From contig NW_013546961.1 of NCBI RefSeq assembly GCF_000711695.1, positions 1 through 64,000 on the forward strand: a DNA stretch of 64,000 nt, written 5' to 3'. Shown piece by piece: positions 58,560 to 64,000 of this stretch (its first letter is position 1; every line of letters begins with the position of its first letter). The notes beneath the pieces are model-generated. The model did no database searches. It was given only the letters and a program-made list of their open reading frames with translations, and was not told the DNA's origin. The translations under genes were made by a program, and so were the position numbers. This DNA is from Tilletiaria anomala UBC 951. Taxonomy: Eukaryota; Basidiomycota; Exobasidiomycetes; Georgefischeriales; Tilletiariaceae.

Positions 58560-61500
58560 ATGACTGGTTCTAACTCACCATTTCAAAATGCATGCGAATC
58601 GCCGGACTTGCAATTCGCCATGGACTTGAGCGAGGGCGGACGCCGCACAGATACCGACCGCACTGAACGTCTGGGGAGGCAAGCCATTTCCTTTGACCGT
58701 GATGGGTTCACGAAACTTCGGGAGAGGCTATCAGGTAAGCTACGCCCTTTTTGAGAATTGAGAAACATTCTCTGACGGAGGCGCCTTCTAACAGCGATGG
58801 ACGTTCGCGGCGAAGGGATCGCATCGTCGACAACCACACAATCTCTTATACACTCAATATCACACAACTCGACTTCAGTGCTCTCTCTTGCTGTTGATGC
58901 CGAAAACGAGCTGATCTTCAGCGGATCCCAGGGCGAATGCATCTATGTATGGGACCTACATACTTACTTTCCCAGAGCCCGACTCGAAGGCCACACCTCT
59001 TCAGTCCTAGCGCTGGAGTTTGCTCCCGAAAGAAGTTGGCTTTTCAGTAGCAGCGGGGACAACACGGTGCGAATTTGGGACACAAAATCTCTGAAGCCCA
59101 TCTACGTCGTATACCCGGCTGACGACAATGTTGGCGATATTTTTGCGCTGAAATGGTGTGAGGAGTTGGAAACGCTCTTTCTCGGGTGTCAGAACACGTC
59201 GATACAGTGGATCAGCTTTACCGGTGCAGACCCATCGCGGTCAGCTGGTGTCAAAGAGGACACTAGCACCAAGCAGCACCCTGCTTTCTCTGCACCGCTT
59301 GGAGAGAGCAAGGGCACGCCTTTCGACACGCCGATACACAAGCCCAACAAATTCTTCGATGGGGCCCCACTGTCCATGCGGCGAACAACCTTGGCAAGCA
59401 ACGCAGGAGCTACGCCGTCAAGACACCAGACGGAACTCATCAGTCATGCATCCATCCTTCCAACAATACCGGCGGAGTCTGAGCCTGAGGCTGAAGCTGT
59501 GCAACTTTCGAGCAGATGCATTGTCGCAAGCGCGCATTACGGGTACATTTACGCCTTGGAGCTCGTGCGACTTTCACCGGACAAGCCTCTGGTACTGATA
59601 AGCGGGTCAGGCGACGAAGACATCAAGCTATGGCAGGTTGAGTCGCCTTCGCCCGACCGACCTTTCGGTGGCTTGCATCACCTCGCAACTCTCCACAATT
59701 CAGAGGCGGGTGTCCTAGCGCTCGCTACCTGGCAGAGCACTCTCTTTGCAGGCCTTCAAGGTGGACATGTCGATGTCTGGGACCTGGAGACTCTGACAGT
59801 GCTGAGGACGCTCAAGGCAGGTAGCGATGATGTGCTATCACTCAGCGCGTTGAGAGCCTCTGGCTTAAAAGGGTCGTCCTCGGTCATGTTCACAGCCTGC
59901 GCAGATGGCACTGTCAAGCGTTTTGATGCTCGATTCCGCTGCACAGCTGAGTGGAAAGCTCATGATGGTGTAGTACTGTGTTCTGTGATTGCGATGCGTC
60001 CCGTTTCTCAGCAAGCCTCATCATCTCACTGCTTAGCGACGGAGGCACGGCTGCTTACAGGGGGTTCGGAATCACTGCTCAAAATCTGGAATATCTCAAG
60101 CAAAAACTCGCTTTGCAGCCAAGTACCCACGTCGGCTGCGCACGCAATCCTTGGCACATCGTTCGAAAGCCTCTCCGGCACGCCGGGAACTCCAACGTCA
60201 GGCGCGGACTTCAAAGTGTTGAGCAAAGAGCAAAGCGATGCGATGCTGGTGCGGTCTCTCTCCGACTTTGTCGGCTTCCAGAGCGTCAGCAGCGAAGACA
60301 CGCGGGAGCAATGCAGGCAGTGCGCTCTTTGGCTGAAGAACTGCCTGACAGAGCTGGGTGCAGAGGCCAAGATCATTGCCGGCGCGCCACATCGGAACCC
60401 GCTCGTCATGGCCACGTTCCGCGGCAGATCGTCCCTGCAGGAAGCTGGTTTATCCGGTCCTGCCGCCGCGAAGCAGAAGAAGAGAAAGCGTTGTCTGTTC
60501 TACGGACATTATGACTGCATTGGAGTGGACGGGCGGAAGTGGGAATCGGATCCTTGGACCATGGTGGGGCGAGACGGGTATCTATACGGCAGAGGTGTAA
60601 GCGATAACAAGGGACCAACGTTGGCGGTCGCGTACGCTGCGAGTCAGCTGCTTAGTCGACGAGAATTAGAAAACGATTTGGTTATGCTGATAGAGGGCGA
60701 GGAAGAGCGAGGCAGCGTCGGCTTCAAAGAAGCACTCATGAAGGCCAAAGAGGAGATCGGCCCTATTGTGAGTTGGATCAACTGGAGTTTGAGCTGGTCC
60801 TCAATGAATGCTGATCATCTCTTTCCGACCAGGACGTCGTGCTCTTGTCCAATTCGTACTGGCTTGGAGAGGACAATCCGTGCATGACGGTTGGCCTACG
60901 TGGTGTGGTTCGCGCGACTGTCCGGATATCGGGACGCATGTCAGATGTGCACTCTGGTGTTGAAGGTGGTGCTGTGCGCGAGCCAATGGTCGATGTAAGC
61001 GAATGCGTGGCGAAAGGCGAAGAGAAATATCCCTTGCTCATATTGGCTGATCATGGCCATTTCCCCGACTGCAGATGATTAATCTGCTCAGCCAAGCCTC
61101 AACAGGCGACAAGGTATTAATCCCGCAATTCTACGACGCAGTGCGCGTAGTTACGCCAGCCGAGCGGGAATTCTACGCCTCGATCGCAAAAATGAACCAA
61201 TCAAGAGCGCGCAACGCCGAGGACTTGATCGCTCGTTGGCGTCTTCCGACGTTTAGTGTTCATGGCATCGAAGTCAGTGGGCCGGGTAACAACACTGTGA
61301 TTCCCAACACAGTCGAAGCGGCCGTGAGCATTCGCATTGTGCCCGATCAGTCCCTCAAGAAGGTCACTGCGTCGCTCATTAGCCACATCGAAAGCACGTT
61401 CAAGCAGCTCCATTCGTCCAATGAGCTCTCTGTTTCCATCGACCATTCGGCCGATTGGTGGTCCGGTAAGCAGGACTCGCCGTTTGCGATGGCACTCGCC

Positions 61501-61841
61501 AAGGCGATCGAGGAGGAGTGGAACCAGTCGCCGGTGAAGATCTGTGAAGGAGGGGTGAGTTGCTTTTAGATGGTCTCGCGAACAAGCGCATGCATCGCTC
61601 GAATGAGTAGCCACTGACTGATTCTGCACTGCCCGAACAACTATGATTGCGACGCGCATTGCAATAGTCAATCCCAGCGGTTGCCATTCTGGAGAAGGAA
61701 CTCAATGCGCCAGCCGTGCATCTGCCTATGGGCCAAGCCTCGGACAGCGCGCACTTAAGCGACGAGCGCATGCGCTTGCTGAACCTGCAGAAGGGCAAAG
61801 CGGTGCTTTCGACATTTTTTAAGAGTCTACCGTCTTTGTAA
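58560..61841 (+). CDS. DUG2: Glutathione degradosome subunit DUG2 (WD40 plus M20 peptidase)
   Basis: Five exons: 58560..58734, 58795..60767, 60833..60994, 61075..61554 and 61668..61841, about 987 residues (yeast 878). The N-terminal half has WD40 repeats (SVLSLAVDAENELIFSGSQG, VRIWDTKSLKPIYVV, LISGSGDEDIKLWQ, GHVDVWDLETLTVLRTL). The C-terminal half is an M20 metallopeptidase domain: LFYGHYDCIGVDGRKWESDP with the metal-binding His and Asp, YLYGRGVSDNKGP, VMLIEGEEERGSVGF with the catalytic Glu pair, then the dimerisation part (VHSGVEGG) and a final HLPMGQASDSAHLSDERMR with the last His ligand. Dug2 pairs with the glutamine amidotransferase Dug3 to cleave glutathione in the cytosol without gamma-glutamyltranspeptidase. 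The last acceptor is AATAG, chosen because only this join reads CEGG-SIPAVAILEKEL in frame; the alternative CAG 10 bases later shifts the frame. Confidence 0.95.
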
Positions 61842-62031: not shown

Positions 62032-63952
62032 TTACAGATCAACAGCAACGAGCACGAGTCCTTTCGCAGGAACGAGCCCTTCCACGCCCGGCAGACACTT
62101 CGTCGACAGTTCATTCTCCGACTCTTCCGACACGATGACGGCGTCGCCTACCGCGTCTTCGTCACCCTCTCCGTCGCCCCGTCCCACGAGGTCGCCACAT
62201 TCGGAAGAACCAGAGGAGCCGACAAGCGTCGTGCCTTCCTCGACTGAGCCGCTGAAGTTGCTGTTGCTCGACATGCTGCTGGTGGGCGATCCGAAGCGCG
62301 CCATGGCAGTGGACGACACCAGGCTCTCTTTGGAGCGCATTGATATCGATACGCCCGCACCCGTTGCCCTCGCCGTCGCAGTGGCAGAAGCAGTGCCAGG
62401 CCCATAGCTGACGACCTGCCCGCCGACGTAGCACAGGCCATGCAGCAGGCTCTTGAAGTCGCGCGTCGTGTGGCGCTCGACGCATATGACGACTTTTTCG
62501 CAACCAAGTTTCTCGCTGGCGTGGTCGAGCACGCTGAGCAGCGACTCGCGCAGGTGCGGCGGCAGTGTCGCGTCGTTGTTTGCGGGGCTGTGGCTGGCAC
62601 TGGCGCGGCTGGACATGATGCTGGGAGGCAAGGTGGAGGAGGACATGCTAACATCGTTGCTGTGCGCATAGGCGAAGGGAGCATCAGTGCCGGCGCTGTT
62701 TTTGACGGCAGATGAAGTAACAGTAGGCGGCAGAGATAGGTATAGTGTACGGCGCATCTCTCCCTCTCCCTCTTCATCCCCTTCATCACGCTCCACTTCG
62801 GTCTCATCTTCATCTTCAGCTCCGGCGGCAGCGCTGACGGAGGAGACAAGCGGGACGGCGAGAACGGCACCGCGCCAATCTTTGCAGACGAGCTCGACCG
62901 ACGCATCCTCCACGACGATTGTCTTGCGAGTGGAGCTAGACATAGAGGCCGACTTGGACTTGCGCAACCGTGCGAGCCGCTCGTTGGCGCGCTCCAGCTT
63001 GAAGCGCGGGAAGACGGTGCGCATGAATGCCAGGGCCACGCGCGCCGGGTCGTGCTTGACGTCTAGCACGATCTCGTCGGCCGACGACATGATCGACGGC
63101 GTTGCGTTCGGGGTAGGGGGCATGAGGCCCGCAACCCCAGCCGTAGCGCTGGCGCTGGCATCCGTCCGGTTGCTCAGGTTCGTGTGCTTTGTGGTTGTTT
63201 TTGCTTGCTGTGTAGCGGGTGCAGCTGTGATGGCGACGCCACGCAGCGTCTCGGTCAGGTAGTTCTGGTTCTTCTGTTTGTGCTCGTCGTGGCGGCTGCT
63301 ACTACTGCGGCTGCTGCTATGGCTGCTGGCACTGCTCGCTCGTCTGGCGCGATCATCGCGATGCAGGATGTCTCGAGCTGCTTCGCTTGCCGCATGGTGC
63401 TGTCGGCCTCTACCATGGCCTCCGAGCTCGTCATATACTGCCCATGCGGCTGTGGCGAACGCTGTGCTTGGACTGGCAGCTGCTGTGGCCGCGGGCAAAG
63501 GCGCGCGGGTGCACAGCGAGGGAGAGGCGGGGTTGGAGGATGGTGGCGTGGCAGGCGGTGAAGCGGGTGAGGGAGTGGAAGCGATTGCTTCATGGATGAC
63601 GACGGGCGCATGCCTTGCGGATGCAGGAGCTCCGTCGCTCATCGGCCTGCCATTCTTCATGCAGGCCTCCTTCTTGACCTGTCCGTCGGTGTGCACTTTA
63701 TCGAACTGGCCAAGCTTGTCCGGCGAAGGTGAGTACGACGTAGCCCCTCTCACAGGCCCACGTCGACCTGGCGCATTTGTTGTGGCGCCAGGAATTTCAT
63801 CGGGAGTCACGTCAAAAGCACCACTTGACGACTCCATCTGGCGTAGTGCTGCTGCCGCTTCTGGAGCCACGGGTAGCGCCAGACTCGAGGGCAGAGAGGT
63901 CGGAGCGGGAGCTGGCGATGGCGCTGTTGTTCTTGTTGTTACTTCCCGTCAT
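62032..63952 (-). CDS. Ornithine decarboxylase antizyme, two overlapping frames with +1 shift
   Basis: ORF1 runs from an ATG at 63952 (open upstream to the window edge, so an earlier start is possible) and ends at the TGA at 63814-63812: ...GVVKWCF-stop. ORF2, in the +1 frame, runs from the same point to 62032, about 594 codons. Its core matches antizyme: VVEDASVELVCKDWRGAVLA, RRTLYLSLPPTV, SLLSVLDHASEKLGCEKVVI followed by CVERHTTRDFKSLLHGLCYV and GGQVVSYG, with the end LVPAKGLVLVAVDL. Antizyme binds ornithine decarboxylase monomers, sends them to the 26S proteasome without ubiquitin and blocks polyamine uptake; polyamines stimulate the shift that makes it. The protein would be about 640 residues, against 200-300 in animals and yeasts, owing to Ser/Ala/Thr-rich inserts. 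An intron within the low-complexity N-terminal half of ORF2 is possible but not needed. Confidence 0.85.
63811..63823 (-). promoter_or_regulatory. Programmed +1 ribosomal frameshift site of the antizyme gene
   Basis: On the minus strand the sequence is TGG TGC TTT TGA C. Zero-frame translation gives Trp-Cys-Phe-stop. Slipping one base at TTT-T reads GAC (Asp) and enters ORF2, which is open for 594 codons. Animal antizymes use TGG TGC TCC TGA with the same Trp-Cys codons before the shift; nematodes use TTT TGA. The match in position, context and gene family makes a functional shift site very likely, though no experiment shows it here. Confidence 0.85.
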
Positions 63953-64000
63953 GATGTCGTTGCTGACGGTGCTGTCGCCGGCACCCTTGCGATTGTTATA

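Follow-up and report, generated by a model that had tools for sequence, protein, structure and literature searches.

Expression of antizyme by +1 frameshifting is widespread in animals and fungi, and for Basidiomycota it has been surveyed by Yordanova et al. 2015 (PMC4505036). There UUU-UGA is the antizyme shift site in all 34 Agaricomycetes and the one Dacrymycete surveyed, and the Basidiomycota element consists of two directly adjacent hairpins 19 nucleotides (nt) past the shift site with an invariant AAAU before them; this 3' element is described for Agaricomycotina and for some members of Ustilaginomycotina and Pucciniomycotina, but not for Tremellomycetes. In Ganoderma the shift site is given as TTTGA (PMC9604110). 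In human OAZ1 the site is UGG-UGC-UCC-UGA (PMC11818727), and the peptide of the first open reading frame (ORF1) ends in RWCS (PMC5009743); other antizyme literature drawn on is PMC2375905, PMC3432380 and PMC3498833. Here we describe a gene on the minus strand of a 64,000-nt stretch of Tilletiaria anomala UBC 951 (contig NW_013546961.1, positions 1 to 64,000; hereafter the window), which is very probably the ornithine decarboxylase (ODC) antizyme of a basidiomycete, expressed by a +1 frameshift with stimulators.

The two-frame layout of antizyme, with its +1 offset at TTT-TGA, is confirmed in the sequence. From 63823 down to 63811 the minus strand reads TGG (63823-63821), TGC (63820-63818), TTT (63817-63815), TGA (63814-63812) and C (63811), where the ORF1 frame terminates as WCF* and the +1 frame opens with GAC at 63813, encoding DVTPDE. 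The full ORF1 has 74 amino acids, with an in-frame TGA four codons 5' of its ATG, and joined to the second frame (ORF2) it gives a predicted product of 667 residues. The features of the locus are as follows.

63812 to 64000, minus strand: the part of ORF1 within the window (63 of 75 codons, TGA included), the ATG being at 64036, outside the window
62032 to 63813, minus strand: antizyme ORF2 from the +1 shift onward, 593 codons and a TAA ending at 62032
63818 to 63824, minus strand: module A, G-TGG-TGC, 7 bases immediately 5' of the shift codon, from the sequence and as described in PMC4505036
63812 to 63817, minus strand: shift site TTT-TGA as in Agaricomycetes, with slip quadruplet TTTT at 63817-63814 and next base C at 63811
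63794 to 63797, minus strand: AAAT, at +15 to +18 after the TGA; AAAU is published as absolutely conserved beside stem 1 (PMC4505036)
63767 to 63792, minus strand: 3' hairpin 1 of the predicted fold, 8 base pairs (bp), CCTGGCGC/GCGCCAGG, with a 10-base loop
63736 to 63765, minus strand: predicted 3' hairpin 2, 8 bp and a 3-bp inner stem with one mismatch and the predicted loop GUGAGA (63753-63748)
62392 to 62571, minus strand: core of the ODC_AZ domain (PF02100), by profile match

On codon preference both ORF1, which ends in UGA, and ORF2 in the +1 frame behave as coding sequence, as in an antizyme gene read by +1 frameshifting. With codon log-odds trained on 18 other ORFs of the window, ORF1 scores 0.129 bits per codon (training means 0.130 in frame and -0.155 out of frame), a value matched by only a fraction of 0.001 of out-of-frame stretches, and its other two frames score negative; 3' of the TGA each of the five 300-base blocks examined scores negative in the ORF1 frame and positive in the +1 frame. 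Moreover, ORF2 matches PF02100 at 43.9 bits (curated cut-off 24.2) over profile positions 36-95 of 114, its predicted structure shows the antizyme fold, and an ODC gene is found in the same genome. An earlier note on this DNA had claimed an antizyme gene with a +1 offset between ORF1 and ORF2, and this is borne out by the sequence, the codon scores and the PF02100 match.

The locus shares most of its cassette with the Agaricomycetes, for example Coprinopsis cinerea (PMC4505036): UUU-UGA, a module A with G as the third base of codon -4, and AAAU followed by two adjacent hairpins from about 19 nt 3', where hairpin 1 is predicted with 8 perfect pairs starting at +20 and the element as a whole is present with two small departures, described below. 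In contrast to that cassette, the AV dipeptide is not seen by eye in ORF1, and no comparable 5' stem is found there, the fold of L002 2860-3060 being ordinary (z -0.87, matched in stability by 35 of 200). The antizymes of Ustilaginomycotina and Pucciniomycotina, compared by description (PMC4505036), have a homologous 3' structure whose stem 2 carries bulges or mismatches. Human OAZ1 likewise shifts +1 at UGA after UGG-UGC, just as the earlier note had it for animal antizyme, and has a similar R/K-W-C peptide (RWCS there, KWCF here); unlike the present locus, it has UCC as shift codon and a 3' pseudoknot instead of two hairpins (PMC11818727). The window thus joins an animal-like UGG-UGC with the basidiomycete UUU-UGA. 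The same note had regarded UUU-UGA in this fungus as of interest as a nematode-type site, a view which the published Agaricomycete, Dacrymycete and Ganoderma sites (PMC4505036, PMC9604110) show to be wrong.

The 12-mer TGGTGCTTTTGA is by itself not distinctive: it is found at 8 places in the 18.4-Mb genome, where about 2 copies are expected under equal base use and the reversed control pattern occurs once. Only one of the eight copies, that of the antizyme, has both AAAT at +15 to +18 and a passed two-hairpin test; at the other seven the +1 frame is open for 2 to 61 codons, the 61-codon one reaching the end of the examined stretch.

For the 3' element, whose stems are predicted from this one sequence, the hairpin architecture, under the criteria chosen for it, occurs at 8 out of 6000 positions picked at random in the window. 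Measured against dinucleotide shuffles, its folding energy is only moderately low (z -1.85; 8 of 200 shuffles fold as stably), and against synonymous recodings it is ordinary; it was ruled out as proof of selection. Since the energy is nothing unusual given the encoded protein, the argument is carried by where the element lies and by its agreement with the published model, not by stability. All 19 pairs are kept in a fraction of 0.00002 of 50,000 recodings, a figure left unused as evidence, the pairs having been taken from the native sequence. A search of Rfam with L002 1000-3500, the stretch around the locus, gave 6 matches up to E 5, none at the gathering score and none to an antizyme element.

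Several observations nevertheless weigh against a stimulated antizyme gene of the published kind. Codon -2 is UGC here versus CGU in the Agaricomycetes or the UGG mentioned for Basidiomycota outside them (PMC4505036). The AAAU stands one base off stem 1, which it abuts in the published structure; one unpaired base lies between the stems, which in the survey follow each other directly in every sequence except one; and loop 2 is predicted with 6 bases against the published 7. Moreover, the stability of the hairpins is only z -1.18, with 13% of 3000 synonymous recodings folding equally well and other ORF2 stretches having lower z, down to -2.82 (80 windows), while the architecture itself appears in 133 of 4000 synonymous recodings, so that it is favoured by the encoded protein sequence as such. 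The DNA of antizyme relatives was sought in viral and genome contig sets, where 11 and 17 pattern matches were obtained and none was confirmed. As for the protein, Foldseek on its own gave an antizyme match at E 0.09 only, and the structure model is poor outside the core (mean predicted local distance difference test score, pLDDT, 52.9). PDB sequence searches with ORF2 and with an alignment (A1) gave no match.

Among the best 7992 candidates scored, the ORF2 search found five annotated relatives besides itself, including Thecaphora frezii and Tilletia walkeri, both of Ustilaginomycotina, and a profile search with the six antizymes, likewise among the best 7992 scored, returned those same six proteins. 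These two species, together with the long ORFs free of introns, make Ustilaginomycotina the probable source of the present gene. Four of the five (P0004, P0006, P0007 and P0008) start with Met-Pro within ORF2, and an ORF1-like N-terminus is present in none of the five. With residues 1-130 of the frameshift product as query, only one match at E<=10 was obtained among 1315 candidates, namely the window's own ORF2; that search covered proteins of 0.55 to 1.75 times the 667-residue product, among which a separate short ORF1 could not appear. The claim that annotation loses ORF1 is thus supported in part. By eye, the Thecaphora MPGTSPGRRQPVRG corresponds to IPGATTNAPGRRGPVRG in the window, of which the first codon, ATT, is part of AAAT-T-CC; MAFFT does not align the two with each other, and the other three Met-Pro relatives are less clear. 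Possibly, such relatives have an AUG within the conserved AAAU(G), at which gene callers place the start, so that ORF1 is lost.

These same starts lend some colour to a rival of frameshifting, namely that ORF2 is translated without shifting from an ATG of its own, reached by leaky scanning, which would make a polyamine-independent antizyme.

63835 to 63837, minus strand: first ORF2-frame ATG, 5' of the shift site, with C at -3 and G at +4

This ATG is indeed present, from 63837, 23 nt 5' of the TGA. However, it is preceded by two ORF1-frame ATGs, both with A at -3, the starts annotated in the relatives lie elsewhere, downstream of the shift site (by eye), and the elements of the shift site would be left unexplained, which makes this explanation very unlikely. 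An intron joining ORF1 and ORF2 in one frame, with no need of a frameshift, is less credible still. Formally, 76 GT-AG pairs 35-399 nt apart would fuse the frames over more than 450 codons (60 spanning the TGA, 16 ending before it), as would 178 further pairs with a GC donor; however, a consensus donor of the GTRNG type is found in none of the 76, and GTRNG is absent from ORF1 altogether; on these donor sequences the model was rejected. In addition, the ORF1 frame has the best codon score of the three in the overlap right up to the TGA, and +1 shifting is the wide usage of antizyme genes. Equally hard to believe is an assembly error by which one extra T in the TTTT run gives an ordinary gene the look of a frameshifted one: the run is short and comes from a single assembly, but the error would have to coincide exactly with a complete antizyme cassette of module A, UUU-UGA and the basidiomycete 3' element.

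For the antizyme gene read by frameshifting, the sequence itself shows the two ORFs, the site, AAAU with the predicted hairpins, and the antizyme domain, and the same genome has an ODC gene. By analogy with known antizymes we infer that the shift takes place, that the stimulators act on it, that it responds to polyamines and that ODC is degraded. Ribosomes would initiate at the ORF1 AUG and arrive at UUU with UGA in the A site, where a fraction would shift +1, the peptidyl-tRNA-Phe re-pairing from UUU to the overlapping UUU with GAC next (..KWCF-DVTPDE..). The rate would be raised by module A (G-UGG-UGC) 5' of the site and by AAAU with the two neighbouring hairpins 3' of it, and polyamines would increase it further; the product would then bind ornithine decarboxylase and lower polyamines, closing a feedback loop.

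A further stimulator may be considered in ORF1. In Agaricomycetes a stimulatory nascent peptide lies at codons -15 to -5 (PMC4505036), known as YYYSTTFSGG in Ganoderma (PMC9604110) and, for Coprinopsis, as S-G-G-P at codons -8 to -5 (Table 2, PMC5009743).

63827 to 63859, minus strand: ORF1 codons -15 to -5, SGSSTTPDGVV, where Agaricomycetes have their nascent-peptide signal; in register, 4 of 11 residues agree, which is weak and may be chance

Against the reference YYYSTTFSGGP, combined in this analysis from the two peptides, S, T and T (-12 to -10) and G (-7) coincide, and this register is the best of all in ORF1. Four matches are reached by a fraction of 0.0067 of 300,000 shuffles, by 26 of 10,538 11-mers from the 18 other window ORFs and by 1 of 591 ORF2 11-mers, which is a weak match. 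There is a small chance that a diverged mushroom nascent-peptide stimulator, older than thought, survives in this probably Ustilaginomycotina antizyme beside the animal-type module A. The probability is set low because STT was noticed before the register was fixed, an earlier, looser shuffle test having preceded, because the protein is Ser/Thr-rich, and because, outside Agaricomycetes and Dacrymycetes, the survey reports no resemblance between the amino acids around the shift site (PMC4505036).

Several other features lie around the gene. Upstream of ORF1 and outside the window, an ATG with an immediate stop at 64286 (minus strand), 250 bases upstream of ORF1, would be a possible start-stop upstream ORF if the leader extends there, and GTRNGT donors at 64560, 64284 and 64220 make a leader intron possible. 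The divergent neighbour of ORF1, at L002:3642-4767 (plus strand, outside the window), matches PF01873 at 84.1 bits and looks like eIF2-beta or eIF5; it probably starts 605 bases away from the ATG of ORF1. On the other side, at 58776-61569 (plus strand), lies a gene with WD40 repeats and then Peptidase_M20 in one open frame (58776-60884), with an M20 dimerisation domain in the stretch 61051-61569, a gene which resembles yeast Dug2. No tRNA genes were found within the window under the bacterial code setting.

Altogether, the locus adds one antizyme, probably of Ustilaginomycotina, to a well-studied recoding family, with an ordinary and well-formed site, and corrects the notion that UUU-UGA is unusual in fungi. 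In the relatives examined, ORF1 and the frameshift product appear to be absent from the annotation, and such genes may be an annotation trap. If the STT..G match were real, the nascent peptide that senses polyamines would be older than the mushrooms.
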